Origin: Lysobacterales bacterium
GTDB lineage: Bacteria > Pseudomonadota > Gammaproteobacteria > Xanthomonadales > Marinicellaceae
DNA: 53,421 nucleotides
Assembly: GCA_026988115.1 (NCBI GenBank)
Contig: JALSLV010000058.1
Location: forward strand, 1-53,421
Direction: 5' to 3'
The position numbers and the translations under genes are program-made. Numbering within the stretch: position 1 is the stretch's first letter; each line of letters begins with the position of its first letter. A model generated the notes under the pieces. That model did no database searches, was not told the DNA's origin, and saw only the letters and a list, made by a program, of their open reading frames with translations. Below, piece by piece: positions 35,544-49,266 of this stretch.

Positions 35544-37874
35544 ATGATTATAAGAACATTTCTACTATTTACACTAACAACTGCTGTTTTTGCGAAGCCA
35601 ATCGTGAGCTATGAACAAGAAATCACGGTGTTAAACGAGTTAAGAGCTGAACAAATTATCACCCAAAACCAATATGAAAACCGCATACAAACCATTGAAT
35701 CTATAAAACCAGTGGTTAAAAATAAAACCTTAGGCGGTACAGCAATAATAAACGGTCATGTTGAAAACACATCTGCAGTACCCTTAACTTCACAAGCCAT
35801 TCAATTGCATGAAATTATAGCGGGTCAGCAGGTGTATGTTGACACAATAATAACAGATGCAAGTGGTGACTTTTCTTTTACTGGTCTCAATGCCGGAACT
35901 TATCTTGTTTTTCAAGGAAGTCTTGATGACGATTATCTCAATTATATGTGGGGTTCTGGTAGCAACACCCTTTGTACGGTTTATGTTGGTGATTGCCGAA
36001 CACCTACAGCATCTAATCAAATTGTCCTAGCGGCTGCTGAAACACGAGCAGGAATCAATTTTATTCCCGAGATTGGAGGTACTATTTCTGGTAGTATTTT
36101 AGAATCAGTCACCAATAACCCATTAGATACGTTAGTAGCAAAAGTCGTATCGCCTGATGGTCGAAACAATTATCAATTAGGTGCGGTACTAAACAATTTA
36201 ACAGGAAGTTATACAGTAAAAGGTATTCCTGATGGTGACTATCGTGTTTATCTCCAACCTGATGATTATGGGCAAAATGGCATTCATGGGGATAATCAAC
36301 ACATTCCTGTTATTTACGGCGGACCACAATGTAATATTTGTGAGCGTCTTTTAGCCACTGGTTCTGGCATTGGCACAATACTCACCATTGCTTCAGCTAA
36401 CACAATTACCAATATTAACTTCTCTGTTGAGATTGGAGCATCTATTAGTGGCAATATTGTCGACAACACTAGCTTAAATGCAGTGCAAAATTATGCCTTT
36501 ATTGTGTTATTTAATGACTCCAATTCCATTGTCAATTACAAAGCAATTGAAGGCACATCAACAAACCCAACTGCTGATGGTTCTTACTTTCTAGGCGGAC
36601 TTCTAGCTGGGAACTACTACGTTCAAGGAGAGGGAGGGGATTACTACCAAAGAGAATTGTATAACAATAGACCGTGTTATTTTGGTGGTTGTTATCGAAA
36701 TTTAGGTGATTTGGTTTCATTAGCGTCTAAAGAAAATAAAGTTGCTATTAACTTTCTCCTCGAAAAAGGGGGTCTAATTTCTGGAAATATTATTGATGAA
36801 ATAACTGGGCTACCTATTATTGGTGAAGCGTACAATGAAACGATTCTTGAGGTTGTTGATGCATCAGGGGTTGTGGTTGGCGGGGCTTATGCTCAAAATG
36901 ATGGGACTTACACCACCGCAAAAGGAATACCCGCTGGCACCTATTCTATTAGGACTGGCTCAATGTTCCAAGGACAACTAACCAAGCCTTATGTCAATGA
37001 GAAATACAACGACGTTCAATGCGCTGGTATTGCCTGTGACTTTAGCTCTCCAAACATTATCGTTGTCACAGATGCCACAACATCAGGAATTGATTTTGCA
37101 CTAACAACAGGCAATTCTTTTACTGGAACTGTCACTGACTTATCAACGGGTGCACCAATTGGCGGTGTGCATGTTTTGGCTTATAAAGAAATGAGTCCAG
37201 GTGTGGTAAAATTTGCCAATTGGGCAACTACTTCTCGTGGCGATGTTCCTGGAGGATCTGCCATTGGTACATTTGAAGTGAATGGATTGCCTGATGGCAC
37301 CTATTATGCACGCACAGGTTATGGTTCGGATTTGCCATTTTTTGTTAGTACTTTTCATAATATTGGAGGCGTTGCTCCTGTGGGTTGGATAGATATTTTA
37401 TATGATGGCATGCCTTGTCTTGCGGGTTGCAACGTGACATTAGGAACACCAATTGTATTACCTGTGGTCGCAACAAAAACCACAAACACGGTGACAACAG
37501 GACCAATTATTGATTTCTCCCTGTCTCAAGGAGCCGTGATTTCAGGGCTAGTGGTAGATTTTATTAATCATGCCAGCCTTAAAGACGTAACGATTAATGT
37601 TTATAATCACACTGGCACATTTATGGGAAGTTCCATTACTAACTCTCAAGGAGAGTATATTACTCGAGGATTGCCTGCAGGAACATATTATTTAACAACT
37701 AGCAGCTATAATAATTTATTGGATGTTAAATACGGCAATGAATTTTGTTACCCTAGTAATTGCAATCCACTGGATGCACAACCTATTAGCGTCACAGAAC
37801 TTGAGACCAAAATAAATCAGAACTTCATCTTGAAAACAGCTTATATGCACATGTTTAGCAATGACTTTGAATAA
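35544..37874 (+). CDS. Secreted protein with repeated carboxypeptidase-regulatory-like beta-sandwich domains
   Basis: A 776-residue exported protein (signal peptide 1-17, TTAVFA before KP). After about residue 68 it consists of about six units of roughly 100-120 residues with the pattern G-x-I-S-G-x-I-x-D at the start, then DG.Y..KGLPAGTYY, a Y..Y..C...C loop, and IDF.L at the end, which is the carboxypeptidase-regulatory-like (prealbumin-like) fold. Each unit holds one close cysteine pair: TLCTVYVGDCR, QCNICE, PCYFGGCYR, QCAGIACD, PCLAGCNV and FCYPSNCN. No C-terminal sorting signal or catalytic domain was seen, so it is probably a structural or binding protein outside the inner membrane. A terminator follows directly. 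Confidence 0.8.
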   Translation: MIIRTFLLFTLTTAVFAKPIVSYEQEITVLNELRAEQIITQNQYENRIQTIESIKPVVKNKTLGGTAIINGHVENTSAVPLTSQAIQLHEIIAGQQVYVDTIITDASGDFSFTGLNAGTYLVFQGSLDDDYLNYMWGSGSNTLCTVYVGDCRTPTASNQIVLAAAETRAGINFIPEIGGTISGSILESVTNNPLDTLVAKVVSPDGRNNYQLGAVLNNLTGSYTVKGIPDGDYRVYLQPDDYGQNGIHGDNQHIPVIYGGPQCNICERLLATGSGIGTILTIASANTITNINFSVEIGASISGNIVDNTSLNAVQNYAFIVLFNDSNSIVNYKAIEGTSTNPTADGSYFLGGLLAGNYYVQGEGGDYYQRELYNNRPCYFGGCYRNLGDLVSLASKENKVAINFLLEKGGLISGNIIDEITGLPIIGEAYNETILEVVDASGVVVGGAYAQNDGTYTTAKGIPAGTYSIRTGSMFQGQLTKPYVNEKYNDVQCAGIACDFSSPNIIVVTDATTSGIDFALTTGNSFTGTVTDLSTGAPIGGVHVLAYKEMSPGVVKFANWATTSRGDVPGGSAIGTFEVNGLPDGTYYARTGYGSDLPFFVSTFHNIGGVAPVGWIDILYDGMPCLAGCNVTLGTPIVLPVVATKTTNTVTTGPIIDFSLSQGAVISGLVVDFINHASLKDVTINVYNHTGTFMGSSITNSQGEYITRGLPAGTYYLTTSSYNNLLDVKYGNEFCYPSNCNPLDAQPISVTELETKINQNFILKTAYMHMFSNDFE

Positions 37875-37885
37875 GTAAAGCAATA

Positions 37886-37920
37886 GGACGCTTGGGTTTT
37901 CTCAAGCGTCTATTTTGTTT
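37886..37920. terminator. Convergent terminator after the 776-residue gene
   Basis: A hairpin with 8-bp perfect arms GACGCTTG/CAAGCGTC is followed by TATTTTGTTT. It lies between convergent genes and probably ends the rightward transcript; the weaker A-rich side makes it less good for the leftward operon. Confidence 0.8.
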
Positions 37921-37923
37921 GCT

Positions 37924-38187
37924 TTACATATCTTCCATCAGTTCATCCATGGCTTCACACGCCTCTTGTGGGTCAGAACTGCTGCCTAATTTTTGAATTT
38001 CTTTCATCTTGCCTGAAAGCGCCATAATTTTACTCATGTCGCCTGAGGTCATGAGGCTTTGCATTTTCTTAGTCAGTTCCTCGCCTTTTGCTTTAACATC
38101 TTCCTTAGTGCTGCAACTAGAGCCTCCACAGGCTGCCAGTGAAAAAGTTGCTAATATCACGATGAGTTTAAGTAAGTTTTTATTCAT
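37924..38187 (-). CDS. Small lipoprotein, last gene of the PspA-flotillin-AAA+ operon
   Basis: An 87-residue protein with a lipoprotein signal (LAAC, lipidated Cys at about residue 20) and a short helical mature part rich in K, E, M and S (EELTKKMQSLMTSGDMSKIMALSGKMKEI), with two more cysteines. No family recognised. Its ATG overlaps the stop of the zinc-ribbon gene (ATGA), and an AGAGGAAA upstream serves as Shine-Dalgarno sequence, so it belongs to the same operon and would put one component of the system on the outer side of the membrane. Confidence 0.8.
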   Translation of the reverse strand: MNKNLLKLIVILATFSLAACGGSSCSTKEDVKAKGEELTKKMQSLMTSGDMSKIMALSGKMKEIQKLGSSSDPQEACEAMDELMEDM

Positions 38188-38717
38188 TTTGGTTTCCTCT
38201 TTTTTAAATAATCGATAACGTCATTCTTTTTATCGTATGTATCTAACCACATTTTGAAGGCATTTATCTTGTTAAATGCATTTCCAAAGTGGTTTTTGAT
38301 TCTTTTTTCGGCATTTTCTTCGACATTCTTGAGTAGCAAGTGCTTTTGCCACTTTTCAGAAAAAATACTTTCTAAATTTTTTTGCAAATCAAGTTGTTGC
38401 AATAATTGCCACTCACCCGAATCAATCCACGTTTCATAGCACCTAAAACACAAATCTAAACGGTTATGTGTTTGGTTTGATATTTGATACTTTGTCATAA
38501 ACCCTGAACATTTTGGGCAATAGATTAAGTCGCTGGTTTCATCAATTTCACAAATGGTTTGACTGGTGTTTCCTTTTGTTTCTTGAGTGTCTCGCCACTG
38601 AATAAATTGAACAATTGAAAGCAAGCTCCCCTTGCAATGATCACAACTCAAGGCAATCAGTCCATTATCTAATTTTTTGGGTTTTAAATGGTAACCTTGG
38701 CATTTTGGGCAATTCAT
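38184..38717 (-). CDS. TFIIB-type zinc-ribbon protein
   Basis: A 177-residue cytoplasmic protein with two zinc ribbons: C3-x2-C6 ... C25-x2-C28 (CPKC, CDHC) and C67-x2-C70 ... C90-x2-C93 (CPKC, CFRC), the second followed by YETWIDSGEWQLL, the W-x-D-x-GE mark of zf-TFIIB domains. The C-terminal 80 residues are helical and basic. It is coupled by ATGA overlaps both to the AAA+ ATPase gene before it and to the lipoprotein gene after it. Its partner and role are unknown. Confidence 0.8.
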   Translation of the reverse strand: MNCPKCQGYHLKPKKLDNGLIALSCDHCKGSLLSIVQFIQWRDTQETKGNTSQTICEIDETSDLIYCPKCSGFMTKYQISNQTHNRLDLCFRCYETWIDSGEWQLLQQLDLQKNLESIFSEKWQKHLLLKNVEENAEKRIKNHFGNAFNKINAFKMWLDTYDKKNDVIDYLKKRKPK

Positions 38718-41700
38718 GATTTTTTACTGGTTCTTTTTTTTACCACTGTTTTAACCGACTTAGTTGAGCTCAATTCATTGAGCTTTTCACTTAGTTTAGT
38801 GACTTCTTCTAACACTTCCATATTTATTTCGAGTTTTTTATTCATGGCAACGACGATGGGTACAAAGGAGTTTGTCATGGTTTCGGACAATGACGACAAT
38901 GCCTCACCCAGTGCGGGTAATGGATTGTTAACCACCTCGACGTCTATATTGAGATTATCAATCGCGGTGGTGATGGCTTTAACTTGTCTGGTTGTCGCCG
39001 CTTTTTCTTTGCTTTTATCTGCAGTTATGGATTGCGATAAATTGTCTAAATGCTCTTTTAAACCCGATATTTGCGAAGCAATTTTAGTTGCACCGTCTTC
39101 ATCGCCAGCGACTGAATTGCGGATTTTGAATTCTGTTTTTATTTGAGCCCAGCGTTTGGCATCATCATTGCTTAAAATGCCACGAAGCTCTTTGAGCTTC
39201 AGCAAATTTTCCTCAGCCCCTGTGGTGAGTAATTGAGCTTCACCAACATAGTGGTCATCAATCAGTTGTTGCAGTTCTTTTTCATCCATGATGGCAACAA
39301 TCTTTTCTGCCATTTTATTCATGTTACGGTAAGAACCTTGTAGTTTAAACGCTGGCTCTTGGCGGTATTTATCATCCATGGCAGCAGAACGAATGTATTC
39401 TTGATTGACCGATAAAATGACTTTTTGGACTTTAAACAACGCTTTAAGTACAGTGGTTATTTCGTTTATCTCACTGCCAGAATAACTGTAGGATAAATCC
39501 GAGGTGGCAATTTCTTTGCCTTGAGCTTTATCCATCAGCAAATACAAATCATTCATGTCTCGTAAGGCTAAGGGTGCAAGCACTTTATTGGAAGTTAATG
39601 CGTTTTCGATATAACTCATGGAAAATATGTCTTCTTGTCCGCTTAACACATCACCTAAATTATAAACATCGGCACGATTGGCTAACATGTCAGGAATTTT
39701 GAACACTTCACCGGATTCGGTGTAAGGATTTCCTGCCATAATGACACAGAACTTTTTGCCACGCAAGTCATAAGTCTTGGGCTCGCCCCTCCAAACACCT
39801 TCAATTCGGCGAGTGCCATCACATAACGAGATGAATTTTTGCAAAAATTCTGGATGAGTGTGTTGGATATCATCCAAATACAACATGGCATTATTGCCCA
39901 TTTCTAAGGCTAAGTTGAGTTTTTCTAGCTCTTGTTTGGCCGTTGCATTGGGTGCATTGGCTGGATCTAACGACTTAACATCATGCCCCAGAGAAGGGCA
40001 GTTGATTTTCATAAAATTCAAACCCAAACGGTTGGATACATATTCCATCAGCGTGGTTTTACCGTAACCCGGAGGTGAAATCAGCATTAATAAGCCCATC
40101 AAATCGGTGCGTTTTTCGGCACCTAATGCACCCATTTGTTTAGCGAGGTTGTCACCAATAATAGGCAAATAGGATTCGTTAATCAATTTATTACGCACAA
40201 AGGAAGACAGCGGACGGGCTTTAAAGGAGTCTAAATTCATGGCGGTTTTTTGGGCTTCCATGATGGCCGTTTTTACTTTTTTGAACTCATTATAAGCAGG
40301 CACAGTGAACTTATTGTAATGACTTAATCTTTCAATAAATTCATCCACTTCAAAATGAATTGTTCTGTCATTTATAGAACCATGATCACCCAACAAATGC
40401 TTAACCTCGCAATGCATGTCTTTTGGGTTTTTACTAAAAACTTCACTTGATTGCAGCAATATGTTGACGATGGCTTCATTTAAGTAACGTTTGTTGTCCG
40501 CTTGATTTGCTTGTTGCAACAATCCCGACAACCAATAACCCACATAGTGCCATTGCTCTTTGGGTGAGTCCTTAAGGTCTGCCAAGGTATTGTTAAATTC
40601 TCTGCTTTGGGTACTGGTTTTGAAGTATGTGTGTAATTGTTCAACCAATTCAGCGGACTTATGCGAGACGTCAAATTGTTTTATGTCTGCCATTAAAAAA
40701 TGAATTAAATATTCCGCCGAGTTCTGCAGTAAATTTTCGTCAAATTCCATCGCTATATTCATGTAAAAATCTTGCAGGTTTTGCTGCGTTTTCGCTATCA
40801 AATCATTGAGCATCTGTACACCACCGAAGGCTTGTTGAATTTTATTTGCTGTTTTGGCTTGATTGATTAGCTGTTTGTTATATTTGTCATCGGTAGTTTT
40901 GAGCCAAAAATAACTGGCAATGGCGCGAGCCGAAGGACTATAGCGCAGTAAGGGCTGGGTTTTGTATTTGTCTAATAATTGAGTCAATATCAACACGGCA
41001 TCATTATCGTGTACGCCTTTTTCATAGCCTTCTTGGTAGCGTGGTGCGGCATAATTTTTGACTATTTGAATCAATGCTTTATCACTTTCTAATAATTTAT
41101 CGAGATTCAATTCGTTTTTGTTGTTTAATGCATCATTAAAAATTGAGTACGCTAGGTATTCTGCGCGGTAAATATCGTTGTTTTCTGAAACCAAAGTTTG
41201 TTGCCAAAATTCACTTAAGTCATTAAGCAAGTCATTTGCAACCGTTTGGTAATATTCGGTACCCGATAAATGAAAGGCAAGTTTACCGTCTTTGGGCAGG
41301 ATGGTTAAATCCAAGGCCTGAGTGTTGACGCTAAATTTGTGTTTGCCGAATTTAATTGCATTACCACCATCTTCAAAAATGTCTTTTTTATCTCGTAAGG
41401 AACGAATGGCTTGTTCTTTTAGAGCTTTGAGTTTGGCTTGGGTATCATCCGCTTTGACATTGTCATCAACTTCTCGCAGTTTTAACACCAAATCAGATAC
41501 CTTCATCACCGTTGGATCGGATGAAAAGTAGGTGTTGAGTTCATCATTTTCACTAAATTTCAAACTGCGTTTTTCGATGCTTTTTAAAATGCGTGTCGCT
41601 GCGCTTTGCAGCGATTGGGCTTTGCGTTGCCTTTGATCAAGCAAGGTTTGTTTGCGTGCTTCAAAGGTTTCATGCAACTCATCGCGTTTGGCATATATTT

Positions 41701-43942
41701 GATCAAGAAACTCATCGTTTTCACTAAAAATACTTTCCAACTCTTCCAGTTGCACCAGTAGTCGCGCGAGTTGTTCGTCACAGGCATCGGGTGTATCGGC
41801 ATTGGAGACGCCGTTGGAAATGCTTTGCGATAAAACCGCTAGTTGTGCACCAAATTCGGCAACCGACTCACCTGCTGATAACTCCTTGCTGGTTAATTTT
41901 GCGTGGGCTTTGGTTTGGTTAATACGGCTATATACCGTTGAGACGGATTGTAAAATCTGGGTTTTTACCGTGGTGTCATCAATTGCCAAACCATTTATCA
42001 CTTCGCTCAAGGCATCCAAACCATGACTCATTTCATCGAGTTGCGACAAAATTGGTTGTAAGTCTTTGACGGTTTTGATTTTCTCTATGCTTTGATGAAC
42101 CTCATCAACCACCTTGTTGTAGTATTCCATTGCATTTTCTTGCGATAAAAACTCAACCGTGCGTTTGCCCAATTCGTCAACTTCTTTGTCAACTTTGGCT
42201 GAGACTTCATCCAGTTTAGCTAAGTCGATGTAACGGTAATCTTTAAGGGAAAGCAAATGCCCTTTTTGGCGTTTGAGCTTTAACAACCCCTCAACAAAAG
42301 GGGCGGGTGTGTCCCAATTGGATATGGCAATTTCTTTGAGCAAGGCCTTGAGCTTATTTTGCGCCTCTTTTAATGCCTGTGAAGATTGTTCGCTGATGGC
42401 ACGGACTTTTTCGAATTCATCCAAGACCAGCTCTGAGGTTTCGCCAATTTCTTTGAGTTGATGGGAAAACTCGCCGACTTCATCACTCTCCAGCCAATAA
42501 TAACCATCGGTGACGCGTTGGATATTTTTGATTAAATCTTCATAAACTAAAATGCTGGGTTGTTGCTGGCTTATCATCTTGGTAATGGTATAAAGCTCAG
42601 AAATACCTTGCACCAATTCGGCATTGCCGATTGTCGCTAAAAAAGTTTTCTCACTGCTGTTGGCTAGAGAATATTCTTCGCTGGTGTAAGGCGTTTGCCA
42701 CACTTGCATGGGATGGATGCGAGTTGGTTCGTTTGATTCACTGCGAAAAATGAGCATCTTGCCATCATCATAGAGCGAATAACCATGCCCAAAAATTGGA
42801 CTGGCAAGTTCTTTTCGAATCATATTATAGGAAAATAATGCAAATTTGCCTTCATTTTGTTCGTAAAAGACATAGAGAACGTCTTCACCATTGGGAGAAT
42901 TCCACTGGCGTTTAAACTTTAATCCACTGATGTCTTCAGCAAAGACCTTGGATTCTCCACTTTGCAGATAATAACCACCGGGGAATATAATGCCATGTTC
43001 GTTGGGCAGGCTTATGCAGGCATAACCGATGGCATCGATGCGTTTGACATCCTGATTGCGAGTATTGAATACGAAATAACGCCATGTTTCTTCTTTGTAG
43101 GGTAAAAATTTCAATAAAATTAAATGACCCACGCGTGCATAGAAAATTTCGGCATCATCTAACGATTGATGGGCTTCTTGCACGGGTTCTCGGTAAATCC
43201 CTTGTCCGTCTTCGGTGTTGTCTTCTATCTTGATGGTCAAATCACCACCCACGGTTTCGACAAATATTTCATCCATTATCGAAACATGCGGGTGCTTGCC
43301 TTCGATAAAATTTTCACGTTTGGTTGCAATCCATTGAAAATCATAAGCCGGTGGCAACTCCATATCTCGCTCACCACGGTCATCAATATACTTAACCTGT
43401 CCATCTACTGATAAATCCCAACGAAAGACACGCACATCAGTAATACGATCGCCGATTTGAAAGCCAGCCAGTAATTTTTGGTTGTTAATCCTTAATTGTA
43501 CCAAGTGGGTGTTTTTATAATAGCTGTAGAGTTCAAAAAATTGCTTTTGAAATAAGGCATCATCCAAAAAACTGCCTTTTAGACTTTCCGCCTTTACATC
43601 AAATTTTCCGTCCTTTTCTTGTAAAGAATACAGGGCAAAGACATCGGATATTTTGGTTTCCTTTTTTAAACCAATAAAAACGTTATACCCAAAAAGCAGC
43701 TGCCCATTGATGCGAACAATATCACGAGGGACGCAATTGTTTTCGGTACGAACGCGAACACGGTCAATAACCTCAAGCACGGTTTTGCCAAATTCAGCTT
43801 CACGTTTTTCATTAAGCGAAAGAATGCCTGATTCCAGCTTTTTGTTTTGTTCCTCTAAGCGTTTGCGAATGACTTCATAGGAGCCACCTTCGGCTACGGC
43901 TTGGTTTATTATGTTGCTTTTTTTATTTTTCTCTTTTGACAC
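38714..43942 (-). CDS. Giant AAA+ ATPase (1742 aa), often annotated 'DNA repair ATPase'
   Basis: The largest gene of the window. The N-terminal 430 residues or so are beta-rich (repeated RVRTENNCVPRDIVRINGQLLFGYN-like stretches), residues about 440-900 are long helices likely forming coiled coils, and the AAA+ module begins near residue 1270: Walker A PPGYGKTT with its Lys near 1295, Walker B MLYLDDIQHTHPEF near 1355, and a sensor-1-like Asn in VIMAGNPYTESG. The C-terminal part is again helical. Proteins of this size and layout are often named DNA repair ATPase without experimental support. Here it sits downstream of a flotillin, NfeD-type protein and PspA, so a membrane-remodelling motor is at least as likely. 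134 bp separate it from the flotillin gene. Confidence 0.85.
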   Translation of the reverse strand: MSKEKNKKSNIINQAVAEGGSYEVIRKRLEEQNKKLESGILSLNEKREAEFGKTVLEVIDRVRVRTENNCVPRDIVRINGQLLFGYNVFIGLKKETKISDVFALYSLQEKDGKFDVKAESLKGSFLDDALFQKQFFELYSYYKNTHLVQLRINNQKLLAGFQIGDRITDVRVFRWDLSVDGQVKYIDDRGERDMELPPAYDFQWIATKRENFIEGKHPHVSIMDEIFVETVGGDLTIKIEDNTEDGQGIYREPVQEAHQSLDDAEIFYARVGHLILLKFLPYKEETWRYFVFNTRNQDVKRIDAIGYACISLPNEHGIIFPGGYYLQSGESKVFAEDISGLKFKRQWNSPNGEDVLYVFYEQNEGKFALFSYNMIRKELASPIFGHGYSLYDDGKMLIFRSESNEPTRIHPMQVWQTPYTSEEYSLANSSEKTFLATIGNAELVQGISELYTITKMISQQQPSILVYEDLIKNIQRVTDGYYWLESDEVGEFSHQLKEIGETSELVLDEFEKVRAISEQSSQALKEAQNKLKALLKEIAISNWDTPAPFVEGLLKLKRQKGHLLSLKDYRYIDLAKLDEVSAKVDKEVDELGKRTVEFLSQENAMEYYNKVVDEVHQSIEKIKTVKDLQPILSQLDEMSHGLDALSEVINGLAIDDTTVKTQILQSVSTVYSRINQTKAHAKLTSKELSAGESVAEFGAQLAVLSQSISNGVSNADTPDACDEQLARLLVQLEELESIFSENDEFLDQIYAKRDELHETFEARKQTLLDQRQRKAQSLQSAATRILKSIEKRSLKFSENDELNTYFSSDPTVMKVSDLVLKLREVDDNVKADDTQAKLKALKEQAIRSLRDKKDIFEDGGNAIKFGKHKFSVNTQALDLTILPKDGKLAFHLSGTEYYQTVANDLLNDLSEFWQQTLVSENNDIYRAEYLAYSIFNDALNNKNELNLDKLLESDKALIQIVKNYAAPRYQEGYEKGVHDNDAVLILTQLLDKYKTQPLLRYSPSARAIASYFWLKTTDDKYNKQLINQAKTANKIQQAFGGVQMLNDLIAKTQQNLQDFYMNIAMEFDENLLQNSAEYLIHFLMADIKQFDVSHKSAELVEQLHTYFKTSTQSREFNNTLADLKDSPKEQWHYVGYWLSGLLQQANQADNKRYLNEAIVNILLQSSEVFSKNPKDMHCEVKHLLGDHGSINDRTIHFEVDEFIERLSHYNKFTVPAYNEFKKVKTAIMEAQKTAMNLDSFKARPLSSFVRNKLINESYLPIIGDNLAKQMGALGAEKRTDLMGLLMLISPPGYGKTTLMEYVSNRLGLNFMKINCPSLGHDVKSLDPANAPNATAKQELEKLNLALEMGNNAMLYLDDIQHTHPEFLQKFISLCDGTRRIEGVWRGEPKTYDLRGKKFCVIMAGNPYTESGEVFKIPDMLANRADVYNLGDVLSGQEDIFSMSYIENALTSNKVLAPLALRDMNDLYLLMDKAQGKEIATSDLSYSYSGSEINEITTVLKALFKVQKVILSVNQEYIRSAAMDDKYRQEPAFKLQGSYRNMNKMAEKIVAIMDEKELQQLIDDHYVGEAQLLTTGAEENLLKLKELRGILSNDDAKRWAQIKTEFKIRNSVAGDEDGATKIASQISGLKEHLDNLSQSITADKSKEKAATTRQVKAITTAIDNLNIDVEVVNNPLPALGEALSSLSETMTNSFVPIVVAMNKKLEINMEVLEEVTKLSEKLNELSSTKSVKTVVKKRTSKKS

Positions 43943-43976
43943 GGTGATACCTTTTTATGATTTACTACAATCCCCG

Positions 43977-44045
43977 GGTAGTTGGTTTTTCAACTGTTTC
44001 TTACCTAAAACCTGTGGTTTTATGGGTTGACTAAAGCCAACTACC
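43977..44045. repeat. Nested palindrome between the flotillin and AAA+ genes
   Basis: Outer arms GGTAGTTGG (43977-43985) and CCAACTACC (44037-44045) enclose an inner hairpin AAAACC-TGT-GGTTTT (44007-44021). In the operon mRNA it would fold into a two-level stem in the only sizeable gap of the operon. It may set the relative amounts of flotillin and ATPase mRNA, or simply be a dispersed palindromic repeat. Confidence 0.55.
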
Positions 44046-44076
44046 GATTTGAGTGTTACTCATTTATACGGGACAA

Positions 44077-46071
44077 TTAAGTTTCCTTATCTTCGGATTG
44101 CTTTTCACCCTTATTGCGCGCTAAGTTTTTTATCATTTTAGTGACATTAGCGACATCAAAACTTTGTCCAGTACCGAGTTTCATGACTTTTGAAACAGCG
44201 GCTTGTAGAATGTCTGATTTTCCAATCGCTCCATCTACGGCTTTACCAACAGCGAGTGAACTCATGAATTTCTCAAGGAAATCACCGTTACCACCAACGA
44301 TATCGATATTGGCTTCTTTAAGTGCTTCTGCCAAAATATGCGCTTGCTTATCGGCAATTTCGGTATTGGCTTCTATGGCCGTCATGTTCTCTTTATGGGC
44401 TAAATCCAGTGCCATGCGGAACTCTTCGTGACCTCGAACTTCTTCATTCATGGTGCCTAGTGCTTCGAATTTCTCCTCTAAACCTTTGGCTTCAGCGGCA
44501 TATTGCAGTTGAATGACTTCGGCTTCGGCCTCTCCACGTTTTTTAATCGCTTCGGCTTCGGCTACTTTGATTTTGACATCGACCATGGCTTGTTGTTCTT
44601 CGCCTTTAGCATCGGCCTCTTTGACGCGAACATGTGCCATGCCCACTTCTTCGGCTCCCATGGCTTCGGCTTTGAACTTGCGTTCTTGAACGATGGCTTG
44701 GGCAATACCTGGAGCTGCAACTTTTTCTTTGACGCCTTCGGCAAGTCTTATCATTGCATCGGCTTCTTTACTGGCAGCTTCACGTTCGGCTTCGGCTAAG
44801 ATAATGCGTTCGGAAGCTTTATGTTTAGCGCGGGTTTCATCGGCTTGTGCGGCTTTGATTTCTTTAATTAACTCCTGTTCAGCAATGGCTTCAGCATTAA
44901 TCACATCTGATTTTTTGTTGCGTAATGCTTCTTCAACCAAGCGTAATTCTTTGATTTTTTCTTCCTGCTCGGCTACGGTTCTTTCTACCGCTATGCGCTC
45001 ACGAATAACATCGGCAATGTTTTTCTTTTCAACTTCGATGTCTTTTTCTGCATTAATTTCTTGTAAGGCTACTTCACGTTCGCGGCTAACAATTTCGACT
45101 TCTCTTGTTCGAATGACTTTTTCTTCTTCAATCGCAACGGCTCGTTTGCGGTTGTTTTCAGCCACTTCAACTTCACGCAATTTATTTTCTTCTAGTACTT
45201 GCACTTCTTGTTCCATGGCAATACGGGCTTGTTCGGATTTGAGCTTTTCTTCGGATTCAATTTTTTCCTGTTCGGCAGTTTCTCTTGCTTGAACGGTTGC
45301 CACTTCACGTTCTTGCTTTGCTATCGCATCGGCTTCAATGCGTTCCAGTTCTAAAATTCTCTCACGGGCTTCCACATCGCGTTTTTTAATTCGGGTTTCT
45401 TCATCGCGTTCAAATTCATTGGTCAAAATATGTTGTTTTGCCGTTAACTCGGTAATTTTACGAATGCCTTGGGCATCTAAAATATTGTTTTCATCCAATG
45501 CTCCAATGGGTGTTTGTTCTAAGTAGTCAATCGCCGCATCTTCTAGGACATAACCATTGAGGTCTTTACCAATAACCATGATAATTTCATCGCGAAACCT
45601 ATCTCGTTCTTCGTATAACTCTTCAAAATCTAATTTTTTACCAACCGTTTTTAAGGCTTCTGAAAATTTTGCACTGAATAACTCATCAACCGTGGCTTGT
45701 TTGGATGCACGTTCACAACCAATGGCTTGTGCCACCTTAAGCACATCTTCTTTGGTCTTATTCACCCGCACAAAGAAAGTTACCTTGATGTCAGCACGAA
45801 TATTGTCCTTGCAAATCAAGCCATCTTGGGCACGTCTGTCAATCTCTATGGTTTTCAAGGAGATATTCATAATTTCTTTTTTATGAATAATTGGCCACAC
45901 TGTTCGACCCGTAAAGGTCACATCAGGAACGGCACGCAAGGTGTTAACAATCATGGCTTGTCCCTGATCGACCTTTTTGTAAAATTTCATTAGAATTAGT
46001 GCTAACCCCATTATGACGAGGAAGATAATCCCTGCATAGGTTGCAATGGCTATTAATAAATCACTGTTCAT
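44077..46071 (-). CDS. yqiK: Flotillin family protein (YqiK-like)
   Basis: A 664-residue flotillin. An N-terminal transmembrane helix (7-29) is followed by the SPFH/Band 7 domain (about 30-200), a very long coiled coil rich in A, E, K and R (about 210-590), and the C-terminal flotillin oligomerisation region. Flotillins form large membrane-attached cages that organise membrane microdomains. YqiK is normally encoded next to YqiJ, as here, where yqiJ lies 55 bp upstream. Transcribed within the leftward operon. Confidence 0.93.
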   Translation of the reverse strand: MNSDLLIAIATYAGIIFLVIMGLALILMKFYKKVDQGQAMIVNTLRAVPDVTFTGRTVWPIIHKKEIMNISLKTIEIDRRAQDGLICKDNIRADIKVTFFVRVNKTKEDVLKVAQAIGCERASKQATVDELFSAKFSEALKTVGKKLDFEELYEERDRFRDEIIMVIGKDLNGYVLEDAAIDYLEQTPIGALDENNILDAQGIRKITELTAKQHILTNEFERDEETRIKKRDVEARERILELERIEADAIAKQEREVATVQARETAEQEKIESEEKLKSEQARIAMEQEVQVLEENKLREVEVAENNRKRAVAIEEEKVIRTREVEIVSREREVALQEINAEKDIEVEKKNIADVIRERIAVERTVAEQEEKIKELRLVEEALRNKKSDVINAEAIAEQELIKEIKAAQADETRAKHKASERIILAEAEREAASKEADAMIRLAEGVKEKVAAPGIAQAIVQERKFKAEAMGAEEVGMAHVRVKEADAKGEEQQAMVDVKIKVAEAEAIKKRGEAEAEVIQLQYAAEAKGLEEKFEALGTMNEEVRGHEEFRMALDLAHKENMTAIEANTEIADKQAHILAEALKEANIDIVGGNGDFLEKFMSSLAVGKAVDGAIGKSDILQAAVSKVMKLGTGQSFDVANVTKMIKNLARNKGEKQSEDKET

Positions 46072-46096
46072 ATTTTTGCTCCGTTGTATTTTTTGA

Positions 46097-46120
46097 GATT
46101 CCTGCCTAAGCAGAAATGAC
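46097..46120. repeat. Degenerate half-copy of the GTCATTCC palindromic repeat
   Basis: Read on the minus strand, GTCATTTCTGCTTAGGCAGG followed by AATC resembles one arm of the 106-bp palindrome at 22268-22373. It lies between yqiJ and yqiK, inside the operon. Confidence 0.5.
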
Positions 46121-46126
46121 GGTCTT

Positions 46127-46777
46127 TTATATTTTTGCTACGTTATAGCAATCATCTTTTTCATTGTATTCGATAAGGATAACTTTATCCCCTTTCTTAA
46201 TTTCTTTTTCTGCTGGTGCTCTTATGGATAATACCATGCCAGCTTCGCCATCTTCTAATGAGGCTTGTCCAAACTCTTCATTGACTTGACCCGTTGTGAC
46301 TTCACACTCTTGCCCAATCAATGTGCTTTTCTTTACTGCAGTATGGGCAATAAAAAAACCTTTAAACGGTCTTATTGTCCATGCAGTAATTGGAATAGAT
46401 ACAGCAAAACAGACCGCTATTAAACCTGCTCCTATCGCATAGCGTAAAATATCAAGTGGTATATGAACCAAAATAAGCGATGTAGCCAGATAACATATTA
46501 ACCATGAGGTAACGATTAAAAATGAAACCACAACGGTGATTGGCACTCCCGTCAATCCCCAGTTGAGCATAAATCCGGCTAAACCACTTAAACCTTGTGC
46601 ATCAGGATTGATACTGACTTCGGTTTCAAAATCCGTTTCAATCTCAATATCTGCATCAAATACATCAATGTCCACCACGCCAAATAGAGCCATCATCCAA
46701 TAAAAAAGCACGATAATTAACAAAAAAGTGTAAACCACTACGGGAAAAGTTGTTATATTTGCTAAAAATGTTTCCAT
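46127..46777 (-). CDS. yqiJ: YqiJ-like membrane protein with OB fold (NfeD-related)
   Basis: A 216-residue protein with three or more transmembrane helices (about 11-33, 75-105 and 108-132) and a C-terminal OB-fold domain (about 145-216, GQECEVTTGQVNEEFGQASL... KGDKVILIEYNEKDD). This is the YqiJ family, related to NfeD proteins, which nearly always pair with SPFH proteins. Its ATG overlaps the previous gene's stop by one base (TAATG). Confidence 0.88.
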   Translation of the reverse strand: METFLANITTFPVVVYTFLLIIVLFYWMMALFGVVDIDVFDADIEIETDFETEVSINPDAQGLSGLAGFMLNWGLTGVPITVVVSFLIVTSWLICYLATSLILVHIPLDILRYAIGAGLIAVCFAVSIPITAWTIRPFKGFFIAHTAVKKSTLIGQECEVTTGQVNEEFGQASLEDGEAGMVLSIRAPAEKEIKKGDKVILIEYNEKDDCYNVAKI

Positions 46778-47115
46778 TATTTTTTCACCTCATCACTTTT
46801 ACTTGCGTGTTTAATTAGTATTTCTGCTGCACGTTTCTTTATTTCTAGTTTGTTGTCTTCTTCGACATCAAATTTTTGCGCTAAAAACTTCATGTCTGCA
46901 CCATTTAAGGAAATGGACAAGCGCAGTCGTTTCGGTTTTCGTGATATTTTTAGTCCTAATAGTTCACGAATTCGATCCGATGGATTTAGATCCCTGTCAA
47001 GCGCTTCCTTACGAATGACGTATTGAATCTTTTCTCCCACATCAAAAGCCACTTGTGTTGCTTTGATGGCTTTTTCTTCTTGTTCCCACTTTTGTAGGAT
47101 TTTTTTCTTTTTCAT
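46777..47115 (-). CDS. Small basic protein of unknown function between pspA and yqiJ
   Basis: A 112-residue basic, helical protein (MKKKKILQKWEQEEKAIKATQVAFDVGEKIQYVIRKEAL...). The segment YVIRKEALDRDLNPSDRIRELLGL, then KRLRLSISLNGADMKFLAQKFDV, weakly suggests ribbon-helix-helix-like or small DNA-binding folds, but I cannot assign a family. It ends in a TAATG overlap with yqiJ and lies 61 bp after pspA, so it is part of the operon. It could be the operon's own regulator. Confidence 0.7.
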   Translation of the reverse strand: MKKKKILQKWEQEEKAIKATQVAFDVGEKIQYVIRKEALDRDLNPSDRIRELLGLKISRKPKRLRLSISLNGADMKFLAQKFDVEEDNKLEIKKRAAEILIKHASKSDEVKK

Positions 47116-47176
47116 AGGCTAGCTTTAAATTTAAATACCAGTCGTCACTGGCATTATGTTGTTAATGGGTATTTCC

Positions 47177-47875
47177 CTACGCTTTTTTCTTGGCTTTGGC
47201 TTTCAATCGCGCTAATACGGCTTCGGCTGCACTTTGGGTGTCACCAATGCCCGCTTGCTTCATCTTATCTGATAGGTTTTTGCCACTATTTTCAGCATCC
47301 AATTGTTCTGCGGCTAAATTTCTGTCATCAAAGTCTTCTTGCTTTTTACGAATTCTATCCAATGACTCTTTTGCCGACATCAAAGTCGAATCCGTTGTCC
47401 CAAAATTGTCTGTTATGGCTGCCGTGGCTTTTTGCACATTCTCTGTGGTTTTCACCATGGTTAATTGACGTTCATAATCCTTAAGCTGTCTTTCGGCTTT
47501 TTCCATCATGCTTTTGAGTTTTTCTATGTGTTTTTCATAAGATTGTTGAGCATCCACCTGCAAAGCTTTATCTTGTTCAAGTTCTGCCACTTTTGTGGCA
47601 ATCTCTAAGGCAAGGCTTTCTTCTTTTTTGGCTAACGCATCGGCAACATAACCCTCATTCTTTTCAATTTCTGCGCTAATGGACTCTACCTTGCGAGAAG
47701 CTTGCATTTCTTTTGCCATCACTTGGGTTAAATCGTGTTTGGCTTTTTTTAAGCTTTCTTGTGCGTCTTCGATTTCTTGTTCAAAGATACGTGTGCCTTG
47801 AGAGTCAACGATTGATTCACCTAGTTCACGCGTTCCTCCTCGGATAGCTGTCATTATTTTCTTTAATATGTTCAT
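47177..47875 (-). CDS. PspA/IM30 family protein
   Basis: A 232-residue, almost wholly alpha-helical protein of the PspA/Vipp1 family, bacterial ESCRT-III homologues that polymerise on and repair the inner membrane. The long coiled coil (about 25-150) contains the family's QEIEDAQESLKKAKHDLTQVMAKEM and KAERQLKDYERQLTMVK segments. The amphipathic N-terminal helix is MNILKKIMTAIRGG. I chose the ATG at 47875 because a good AGGTGA lies just upstream; a GTG at 47884 is inside that Shine-Dalgarno sequence. It follows the DUF2170 gene by 23 bp, as yjfJ follows yjfI in E. coli. Confidence 0.92.
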   Translation of the reverse strand: MNILKKIMTAIRGGTRELGESIVDSQGTRIFEQEIEDAQESLKKAKHDLTQVMAKEMQASRKVESISAEIEKNEGYVADALAKKEESLALEIATKVAELEQDKALQVDAQQSYEKHIEKLKSMMEKAERQLKDYERQLTMVKTTENVQKATAAITDNFGTTDSTLMSAKESLDRIRKKQEDFDDRNLAAEQLDAENSGKNLSDKMKQAGIGDTQSAAEAVLARLKAKAKKKA

Positions 47876-47898
47876 GTTTTTCACCTTTTAATCTTACG

Positions 47899-48306
47899 TT
47901 ATTTTAAAAAATCTTCCATAGCGGTCACTACGTCTATGGCATTTTCATTGAGTGTTACCACTTCTTCTATGACTTTGTCTAAATTTGAGTTGACCGAGAG
48001 TGCTCCATAAAGAACAAACCGATTACCTACCCGCGCATAAGCAGAAAGTGGTATGGAAATACTGGTATCGAGCATCATTTCTAACATTTGTGTGCGCTTT
48101 TCAGATTTAACTTCATCCTCCGACCACAAATAAACAATGCATATAATTTGGTTTTGGGTTTTTGTCAAAAAAATTGGAAAACCATTCATTCCGTTGATTT
48201 CAATTTGCAAAACTTCAACTTCTCCATTAATGGTTTGGCAGTCAAAAGTAAAACCTTCCCTGGTTCTGTTTTGTGATATTCGTATAGCGTAATCCTGTAT
48301 GTTCAT
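47899..48306 (-). CDS. DUF2170 (YjfI-like) protein, first gene of the operon
   Basis: A 135-residue protein of the DUF2170 family, related to E. coli YjfI, which is encoded next to the PspA-like YjfJ. It has a type III secretion chaperone/YbjN-like appearance: alternating strands (FTFDCQTINGEVEVLQIEI, QIICIVYLW) and a C-terminal helix (NLDKVIEEVVTLNENAIDVVTAMEDFLK). I chose the ATG at 48306 (MNIQDYAIRI), preceded by AGGAGA; the frame is open 26 codons further upstream but that part overlaps the promoter. Confidence 0.85.
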   Translation of the reverse strand: MNIQDYAIRISQNRTREGFTFDCQTINGEVEVLQIEINGMNGFPIFLTKTQNQIICIVYLWSEDEVKSEKRTQMLEMMLDTSISIPLSAYARVGNRFVLYGALSVNSNLDKVIEEVVTLNENAIDVVTAMEDFLK

Positions 48307-48338
48307 TGTTGTTTTTCTCCTAACAGTTGTTTGCTTAA

Positions 48339-48393
48339 TGACATAATATGGCACCTGCCATAATATGTCAAGCGGTAATGCCATAATATGTCA
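48339..48393 (-). promoter_or_regulatory. Three 15-bp operator-like boxes
   Basis: Box 1 TGACATAATATGGCA (48339-48353) and box 2 TGCCATAATATGTCA (48356-48370) form an inverted pair two bases apart; box 3 at 48379-48393 is identical to box 2. Each is itself nearly palindromic around CATAATATG. Box 1 covers the -10 and box 2 covers most of the -35 of the operon promoter, so a bound protein should repress. The regulator is not known. Confidence 0.8.
48343..48371 (-). promoter_or_regulatory. Strong sigma-70-type promoter of the PspA-flotillin-AAA+ operon
   Basis: On the minus strand TTGACA (48371-48366) is followed after exactly 17 bp by TATTAT (48348-48343). The predicted start of transcription lies about 30 bases before the DUF2170 start codon, with AGGAGA in between. 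The remaining region 48398-48660 holds nothing I can assign. Confidence 0.85.
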
Positions 48394-48660: not shown

Positions 48661-49266
48661 TCACTTAAGAGGTGTTCCTGTTTGAGCACAGTTTCTAATA
48701 TCAGTGAGAACTTTTTCATCCATTTGTTCTAAAAATAAATAACGGTAATTCTCTTGTTGTTTTTTTCTGATTCTTGCTAGTCCTTTGTAACTGCTGTGTT
48801 CTGAAATCACGGGGTCATAAGCTCCTCTTACATTGGAATGATAACTCGACCATTGATAGTCTTGCGGTGCTTTTACCATATCTGCTCTAACTGGGTTCAT
48901 CTCGATATAACGCATACAGGACAAAACATAGACTTCATCAGCAACCAAAGAACTTTTAAAACGCCCCTCCCACAAAGTTCCTGTTCTGTTGTATTTAAAA
49001 TTGACATAAGGAACATAAAATCGCCCAACTTGTTGCATCATTTGACTGATGCCATTAGTTGTATCTGCTGTTGCTAACAGATGAATGTGGTTTGTCATCA
49101 AAACATACGCATGGATCTTTACCCCTTGTTTAGTGGCTGCTTCATTTAAAATAGTTAAATACTTGTGATAATCTTCTTCTTCAAAAAAGACAGCTTCTTT
49201 ATTGTTGCCACGTTGAATAACGTGGTTGGCAATGTCAGCAACAAAAAATCGTGGTTTTCTTGGCAT
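48661..49266 (-). CDS. REP-associated tyrosine transposase (RAYT, Y1 type)
   Basis: A 201-residue HUH-type transposase of the RAYT group, single-strand DNA enzymes that cut and join at REP palindromes. Visible motifs: MPRKPRFFVADIANHVIQRGNN, the HUH histidines in LMTNHIHLL, the region with the catalytic tyrosine (RFYVPYVNFKYNRTGTLWEGRFKSS), and RYIEMNPVRADMV. The extended -10 TGATATAAT (minus strand, about 49298-49290) lies between the gene and a REP at 49308-49330. Copies of that REP are scattered over the next 3.5 kb. Confidence 0.93.
   Translation of the reverse strand: MPRKPRFFVADIANHVIQRGNNKEAVFFEEEDYHKYLTILNEAATKQGVKIHAYVLMTNHIHLLATADTTNGISQMMQQVGRFYVPYVNFKYNRTGTLWEGRFKSSLVADEVYVLSCMRYIEMNPVRADMVKAPQDYQWSSYHSNVRGAYDPVISEHSSYKGLARIRKKQQENYRYLFLEQMDEKVLTDIRNCAQTGTPLK

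Follow-up and report, generated by a model that had tools for sequence, protein, structure and literature searches.

The operon and its gene content

The DNA analyzed here, hereafter the window, is a stretch of 53,421 nucleotides from a Lysobacterales bacterium (contig JALSLV010000058.1) containing an operon of eight minus-strand genes that joins DUF2170 and PspA genes to those encoding a YqiJ-like NfeD-type protein, a YqiK-like flotillin and a giant AAA+ ATPase (Table 1). PspA, flotillins and NfeD proteins have mostly been studied as separate membrane-repair systems. The eight genes and their families had been proposed in an initial annotation made from the sequence; all of the open reading frames (ORFs) were found, and the Pfam assignments and profiles built from the loci described below agree with it. 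The profiles recovered E. coli YjfI (1.7e-31), YjfJ (2.3e-49), YqiJ (4.1e-12) and YqiK (2.8e-54), results supporting the names given here, and the YqiK-like protein of the window is 31% identical to E. coli YqiK across 454 columns. The lipoprotein, the YqiJ-like protein and the protein of 112 amino acids (aa) had no Pfam match at 0.001. The intergenic gaps, from DUF2170 to the lipoprotein, are 14, 61, -1, 55, 134, -4 and -4 base pairs. Position 48306 is a more likely start for DUF2170 than 48384, judging by an AGGAGA resembling a ribosome-binding site and by the alignment of relatives; the longer ORF would overlap the promoter/operator with its first 26 codons.

Table 1. Positions of the operon genes and of nearby sequence elements in the window.
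Feature	Position	Strand	Basis
DUF2170 (YjfI/BacA-like, short form, 135 aa)	47899..48306	-	PF09938 3e-30; ORF opens at 48384
PspA (YjfJ-type, ESCRT-III superfamily)	47177..47884	-	PF04012 (PspA_IM30) 3e-36
112-aa protein (small112), predicted tandem ribbon-helix-helix regulator	46777..47115	-	AlphaFold2 model
YqiJ-like NfeD-type membrane protein	46127..46777	-	Profile match to E. coli YqiJ; hydrophobic segments
YqiK-like flotillin, N-terminal transmembrane-like segment	44077..46071	-	Band_7 6e-12; E. coli YqiK profile match
1742-aa ATPase	38714..43942	-	DUF3686 5e-200, DUF7902 3e-23, AAA 3e-8
Zinc-ribbon protein	38184..38717	-	PF13453 (Zn_ribbon_TFIIB) 1e-7
Small lipoprotein	37924..38187	-	LAAC lipobox, by eye
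Three M1 palindromes, candidate operator	48340-48352, 48357-48369, 48380-48392		One mismatch each to M1
Sigma70-like promoter TTGACA-17-TATTAT	48343..48371	-	Consensus match only, 11/12 positions
Terminator-like hairpin between operon and convergent gene	37887..37910	-	Consensus match only

In order to determine which genes accompany the ATPase, 100 loci were compiled, comprising the window, 19 relatives and the best 80 of at least 567 matching stretches, with one contig present twice (L012/L068). The 84 loci counted had at least 5.2 kilobases (kb) upstream; 15 shorter loci were left out and the duplicated contig was counted once. A relative of the ATPase is encoded in at least 567 of 591 pattern-matched genome stretches, indicating conservation far beyond the strain of the window. 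The core set recurs in many genera, as does the merger of the YjfI/YjfJ and YqiJ/YqiK modules with an AAA+ gene that had been noticed at this single locus. YqiJ was present in 83 of the 84 loci and YqiK likewise, the sole exception (L021) being a solitary ATPase gene from a genome that comprises 520 contigs. PspA was recognized in 53 loci, DUF2170 in 54, the 112-aa gene in 18 and the zinc ribbon in 16. Together with YqiJ, YqiK and the ATPase, 36 loci contained DUF2170 and PspA, 28 contained neither, and 16 contained DUF2170, PspA and the 112-aa gene; the rarer sets were DUF2170 and the 112-aa gene with PspA unrecognized (two loci) and PspA without DUF2170 (one). Whole-genome searches of the 31 genomes with no recognized PspA at the ATPase locus revealed PspA_IM30 elsewhere in 21 and nowhere in 10, while DUF2170 was present in 12. 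The window encodes the sole PspA_IM30 match of its genome. The count for PspA is perhaps slightly low, since a divergent 175-aa ORF, PspA-like by eye, lies between DUF2170 and the 112-aa gene in L015 (2310-2837); PspA may be decaying or specialized there, and a degenerate copy may be present in L015 and perhaps L016. The frequencies (83 versus 53 of 84 loci, with 10 of the 31 genomes free of PspA) tie the ATPase in gene content to YqiJ/YqiK rather than to PspA; as judged from these patterns, the ATPase belongs with YqiJ/YqiK, and PspA-DUF2170 is a plug-in. The modules are nevertheless linked though separable, since in a survey of 276 genomes of the class DUF2170 was found in all seven that bear the ATPase versus 15 of the 269 others.

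The remaining genes of the operon are more variable. The lipoprotein was found in two of the 100 loci, both of the same genus, and is not conserved; thus, the contact across the membrane that the initial annotation had assigned to it is unlikely as a conserved feature. Apart from the window, the complete eight-gene set was seen only in L017, a locus from the same genus. The zinc ribbon is a recurrent, movable neighbor located upstream in divergent orientation, between YqiK and the ATPase, or downstream; matches were found in 12 of 255 class genomes at 0.001, seven of them strong (E <1e-22), and five of the seven were in ATPase-bearing genomes. Other genes were observed near the ATPase. A rhomboid-family protease gene is directly 3' of the ATPase in 12 of the 100 loci (including L036, L038, L041, L071 and L102; Pfam Rhomboid 4e-19 for one member), a PLD-like gene lies within about 0.9 kb 3' in 14 loci, and TelA-family (toxic anion resistance) genes are near it in four (L101:16113-17213, L058, L057 and L061; 5e-69 for the one scanned). 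A small helical protein with weak EF-hand Pfam matches, which by eye we take to be TerB-like, is encoded between YqiK and the ATPase in six loci and after the ATPase in four (e.g. L038:9515-9790, L023:7874-8125). The ATPase reading frame of genome G161 is broken by one TGA (L025:4317-9410). In the window, the operon is flanked directly upstream by an IS200-like (Y1_Tnp) transposase gene (48661-49266) and is convergent with a plus-strand gene encoding a 776-aa protein with carboxypeptidase-regulatory-like repeats (35544-37874).

Palindromes upstream of DUF2170 and the 112-aa protein

Two palindromes, M1 (GACATAWTATGTC) and M2 (TTACATGTAA, one mismatch allowed when counted), were evaluated upstream of DUF2170. 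The three M1 sites at the promoter of the operon are the only ones with two or fewer mismatches in the window, and two of them overlap the TTGACA-17-TATTAT promoter-like site; promoter-like matches in the region numbered 23 versus 27.5 in shuffled sequences. A sigma54 promoter, as in Pseudomonas aeruginosa, was considered but is not supported: the window had 40 matches versus 33 expected, and the 330 bases upstream had none to the consensus on the operon strand and one with two mismatches on the plus strand (48480).

The DUF2170 genes from the loci examined (75, after leaving out the duplicates L012, L128, L110, L112 and L113 and the truncated L043 from the motif counts) comprise 39 of a long form, L061 and L114 included, and 36 of a short form. 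The long form opens with a conserved domain, KSSAHYQRxYRxRLREQGLVKKEVWILPE, and no 112-aa gene was found in the fetched loci that encode it, three of which were checked over 12 to 18 kb. Upstream of the long form, M1 was present in none of 39 and M2 in 34 of 39; upstream of the short form, M1 was present in 32 of 36 and M2 in 3 of 36. All 21 loci with a 112-aa gene in the stretch first fetched have M1, as do 31 of the 32 short-form genes with a 112-aa gene in the locus or genome, G309 (L126) among them. M1 was absent from both short-form loci in which no 112-aa gene was seen over 14 and 18 kb (G163, G091). M1 is lacking in G211 and found in G308, two cases in which the contig ends too close to DUF2170 to show whether a 112-aa gene is nearby. 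As controls, 33 of 3750 samples of Markov-1 random DNA had any M1 and 71 had any M2; of 3438 other tiles from these loci, 4 had at least two M1 and 9 had at least two M2. The results show that M1 co-occurs with a small predicted repressor across many bacteria, pointing to a control circuit. In L070 and L098 the order 112-aa gene-PspA-DUF2170 is divergent from YqiJ-YqiK-ATPase, and the common intergenic region contains several palindromes.

The AlphaFold2 model of the 112-aa protein (17 sequences, mean local confidence score, pLDDT, 73) has two beta-alpha-alpha units. The highest query template-modeling (TM) scores, 0.36-0.40 among the best 50 of 111 rows, were with TraY of the F relaxosome, AvtR and single-chain Arc, which we take to be tandem ribbon-helix-helix (RHH) folds. 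Two relatives match RHH Pfam models below the cut-off (FitA-like 0.21, RHH_9 0.05). Based on the model, the 112-aa protein, found in at least 11 of 255 genomes of the class, looks like a tandem RHH regulator. In G161, G087, G104, G106 and G214 the gene follows DUF2170, PspA and a gene of 212 to 219 aa, which in G161 matches DUF4178 at 3e-5, just below the cut-off. According to Ravi et al. (2024, PMC11237479), a related operon with DUF4178 and spermine synthase sometimes ends in a gene for an RHH transcription factor, in agreement with the RHH assignment since the 112-aa gene ends the DUF2170-PspA-(DUF4178-like) order.

The long form includes BacA of P. aeruginosa, the product of the first gene of bacABCDEF. 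The BacA model NF050185 is 206 aa, and a P. composti protein matches it end to end (353.6 bits), whereas the match of the solved BacA crystal chain 8q8o to that protein is confined to its residues 64-205; we think, therefore, that the published structure is without the DNA-binding-like N-terminal domain. The window DUF2170 matches NF050185 over positions 86-203 only, with 50.5 bits against a cut-off of 300. In the tentative circuit detailed below, the separate repressor would act jointly with DUF2170, since the long DUF2170 fuses DNA-binding-like and chaperone-like domains. The fusion in one branch and the separate RHH gene in the other suggest that DUF2170 itself is the signal carrier. When bacA is disrupted by a transposon, all five proteins encoded downstream are reported to increase by a factor of 6.1 to 13.5 (PMC10948618), as expected of a repressor and consistent with DUF2170 as signal carrier.

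M1 was also found in trans. An exact M1 lies upstream of YqiJ in three (L025, L094 and L099) of the 28 ATPase operons with neither DUF2170 nor PspA, and all three are among the nine of 28 whose genomes have DUF2170 elsewhere. The genome of L025, G161, has seven exact M1 sites, all preceding membrane-related or spermine-synthase operons. Two precede the DUF2170-PspA-DUF4178-like-112-aa gene order. Of the other five, two stand ahead of small genes, grouped in one case with PspA and PspC and in the other with NfeD and Band_7. One is upstream of a lipoprotein-like gene accompanied by DUF350 and spermine synthase, one upstream of a Band_7 gene whose divergent neighbor resembles, by eye, threonine dehydratase, and the last upstream of YqiJ-YqiK-ATPase, itself divergent from a zinc ribbon. 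An eighth site, a variant of M1, precedes the gene of a Bax1-I family (YccA-like) membrane protein (L177:2004-2801). The exact sites of G161 constitute a predicted membrane-integrity regulon. Two M1-like sites of G244 lie ahead of a PspA gene located apart from DUF2170. Stretches around 20 M1-like sites were fetched, three from G161 and 17 from G290, G104, G219, G199, G106 and G244; these were mainly sites matched on both strands, chosen from the matches listed (through G106), a list ending before the individual sites of the window genome, G087, G006 and others. In 18 control stretches from three long-type genomes no recognized PspA, SPFH, YqiJ or ATPase gene was directly downstream, one SPFH fragment being about 1.4 kb away.

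The giant ATPase, proposed mechanism and alternatives

The ATPase is comprised of DUF3686 (39-482), DUF7902 (604-685) and a C-terminal AAA+ domain (about 1285-1412) by Pfam, with no transmembrane-like segment detected. All 44 aligned rows contain PGYGKT (Walker A, 1291-1296), YxDD, GNPY, an NR pair and GSYRN without variation, the second D of YxDD being constant at the usual position of the Walker B glutamate. Based on this invariance the giant protein should be an active ATPase. Neither the ATPase nor YqiK had a relative of solved structure in sequence searches at 0.001. A model of the AAA+ domain (pLDDT 84, 42 sequences) was compared with solved structures by Foldseek; NorQ was the best match followed by RuvB, Lon, CbbQ and others, Clp among them, and Vps4 was not among the best 50 of 456 significant matches. 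The model has a beta hairpin (strands 185-190 and 193-198) ahead of the sensor-1 strand (204-210), a feature typical of MoxR-type and related AAA+ clades. The modeled domain thus resembles MoxR-type proteins such as NorQ and CbbQ. A reading of the locus as a defense system was rejected, PADLOC having returned weak partial matches only (E 0.005).

A three-module membrane-integrity operon is the explanation we prefer for the locus as a whole, with about an even chance of being correct. At the core, YqiJ and YqiK would form a membrane-anchored flotillin/NfeD assembly, as expected from their families, on which the giant cytosolic MoxR-like AAA+ protein would dock, a prediction drawn from the near-constant pairing of the genes. 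The docked ATPase would spend ATP in loading, unloading or reshaping clients or the assembly itself. In the plug-in module, DUF2170, which presumably shares the fold of BacA resembling type III secretion system chaperones, would handle a PspA able to polymerize on damaged membrane. In the control module, the 112-aa tandem RHH protein would bind the palindromes covering the promoter and repress the operon, consistent with the co-occurrence of palindrome and regulator, and membrane damage engaging PspA/DUF2170 would lift the repression.

A more detailed form of this circuit is tentative and somewhat less likely than not to be correct. The 112-aa RHH protein would be a master repressor reading M1, acting in some genomes in trans on PspA/SPFH/NfeD operons and on the flotillin-ATPase machine. 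DUF2170 would shuttle between PspA and the repressor, with polymerization of PspA on damage turning the regulon on, and BacA would be the same switch in fused form, its N-terminal DNA-binding domain having escaped notice and acting on M2.

Several points weigh against the three-module explanation and the circuit proposed within it. The contact between ATPase and YqiK is a prediction from gene pairing. The ATPase was the query and the best 80 matches were kept, hence the locus counts are not a random sample. L132 lacks M1 though its genome has the 112-aa gene, short DUF2170 without a 112-aa gene nearby is represented by only two cases, and the long and short forms are perhaps old clades, in which event part of the motif association may reflect shared descent. 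The 112-aa model has no significant match in the PDB by Foldseek, and the only Pfam lead of note for the N-terminus of the long form, MazE-like, is below the cut-off (E 0.04). Six of the nine genomes in which DUF2170 is apart from the ATPase operon have no M1 before that operon. Outside G161, only two of 17 stretches were at relevant genes (one at DUF2170 of G199, one at PspA of G244), and one-mismatch sites in the window genome were no more common than those of a reversed-pattern control (6/6 versus 7/8); a wide regulon is thus seen in one genome only.

The best surviving alternative, though an unlikely one, is that a single promoter co-regulates independent devices, PspA with DUF2170 and YqiJ/YqiK with the ATPase, which form no joint complex. 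The modules are indeed split in many genomes, yjfIJ and yqiJK are apart in E. coli, and the palindrome or a one-letter variant precedes seven different membrane-related promoters in G161, all as this alternative would predict. However, DUF2170 also accompanies the ATPase in all seven ATPase-bearing genomes of the class, and the ATPase with PspA but without YqiJ/YqiK was never seen among the 84 loci, an absence that favors the existence of one joint complex or more.

The initial annotation had suggested that the ATPase acts on PspA polymers or flotillin cages, as Vps4 acts on ESCRT-III. The flotillin part of the proposal gains from the pairing in 83 of 84 loci; the part concerning PspA, in which the flotillin would be the membrane anchor, is now improbable. 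PspA is described as a member of the ESCRT-III superfamily (PMC10936438) and is linked to the ATPase in 53 loci, and ESCRT-like roles are suggested for PspA-AAA+ associations generally (Ravi et al., PMC11237479). Yet PspA was unrecognized in 31 of the 84 loci, 10 of the corresponding genomes have no PspA_IM30 match anywhere, the Pfam scan of the ATPase at 0.001 detected no MIT domain, the N-terminus being DUF3686, and the best 50 folds are MoxR-type, RuvB, Lon and Clp. Recognition of a PspA tail in the manner of Vps4 was also considered. Tails were aligned from 53 of the 57 ATPase-linked loci, all but L010, L012, L018 and L033, together with those of 18 loci retrieved through DUF2170; three of the 18 belong to genomes in which the ATPase is unlinked. 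Motifs were judged by eye. The C-terminal helix was common to both sets and equally conserved, such that no ATPase-specific tail was seen and this recognition was rejected.

MoxR AAA+ proteins typically have a partner with a VWA domain, as in NorQ-NorD. A maturation factor of the MoxR kind, which would assemble or insert a cofactor in a membrane enzyme with the flotillin pair as docking site only, is the least probable reading, for although NorQ and CbbQ are among the closest listed solved relatives, no VWA-domain gene was noticed in the recurrent neighbor clusters examined (no VWA-directed search was made) and the neighbors identified are rhomboid, PLD-like, TelA and PspA genes.

Overall, the ESCRT/Vps4 picture is weakened, the link between flotillin and ATPase is strengthened, and the control circuit is a new part. 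The first partner to test for the giant ATPase is YqiK/YqiJ and not PspA. To our knowledge, how damage is sensed and the response switched on in bacteria without PspF is a largely open question in the field, and the palindrome/regulator dichotomy offers a ready test case for a switch independent of sigma54. If true, the control circuit would also explain the negative-regulator behavior of BacA.

Relation to known systems

The ATPase shares with the MoxR-type proteins NorQ and CbbQ, which are among its nearest listed folds, the modeled hairpin before the sensor-1 strand; it differs in the giant N-terminal DUF3686/DUF7902 part and the flotillin/NfeD partner. In the literature searched, no mention of DUF3686 was found, and three papers mention DUF2170. 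The likeness to Vps4/ESCRT-III consists of a PspA of the ESCRT-III superfamily and an AAA+ protein encoded in one operon, whereas no MIT domain was found, the listed AAA+ neighbors are other than Vps4, and PspA is dispensable in gene content. E. coli has homologous YjfI, YjfJ, YqiJ and YqiK; however, the yjfIJKLMC and yqiJK loci are separate, as the initial annotation had it, with no ATPase gene annotated adjoining either, no match to the 112-aa protein in the yjf region, and neither M1 nor M2 in the 300 bases before yjfI.

The initial annotation knew of no experimental description of the gene set, but a relative has been studied, the bac operon of P. aeruginosa. It is reported to encode DUF2170 (BacA), a PspA-like protein (BacB), a short NfeD (BacC) and an SPFH protein followed by two further genes, and to form a single transcript as shown by reverse transcription PCR (PMC2587700, PMC10948618). 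The SPFH protein is PaFlo3 (BacD) (PMC2587700, PMC10948618, PMC13086221), the deletion of which reduced biofilm by ~20% (PMC13086221), and one study reports PA3728-PA3732 among 17 genes whose expression rose in every phage-infected sample (PMC12041424). Relatives of BacA with 61-77% identity, the best being 77% among 398 genomes of a genus related to that of P. aeruginosa, were found in DUF2170-PspA-YqiJ-YqiK-ATPase loci of two Pseudomonas genomes and one Stutzerimonas genome (L036, L038, L042). From the synteny of these loci, rather than from the P. aeruginosa locus itself, BacE is probably the giant ATPase. The window shares the DUF2170, PspA-like, short NfeD and SPFH genes with the bac operon in the same order. 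It differs in that BacA is the long form with the N-terminal domain while the DUF2170 of the window is short, and in that the three loci with BacA relatives carry no 112-aa gene.

The closest published counterpart is the operon reported by Ravi et al. (2024, PMC11237479), with genes for DUF2170 (CesT/Tir-like), PspA, a YqiJ-type protein, a band-7/flotillin protein and an AAA+ protein with an N-terminal beta-propeller and coiled coil, for which shortened versions without PspA are also described. The window has all five core genes in one cluster, with the zinc ribbon and lipoprotein tail as extras. An RHH gene inside the flotillin/AAA+ operon, the operator, and the split between long and short DUF2170 are not seen in the portions of that report available to us, the main text of which contains neither "operator" nor "palindrom"; in the literature searched, the M1 and M2 strings occurred only in two papers, both on plants going by their titles. 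Thus, the core gene set is already published, and the operon of the window is of the described kind with a variant control part.

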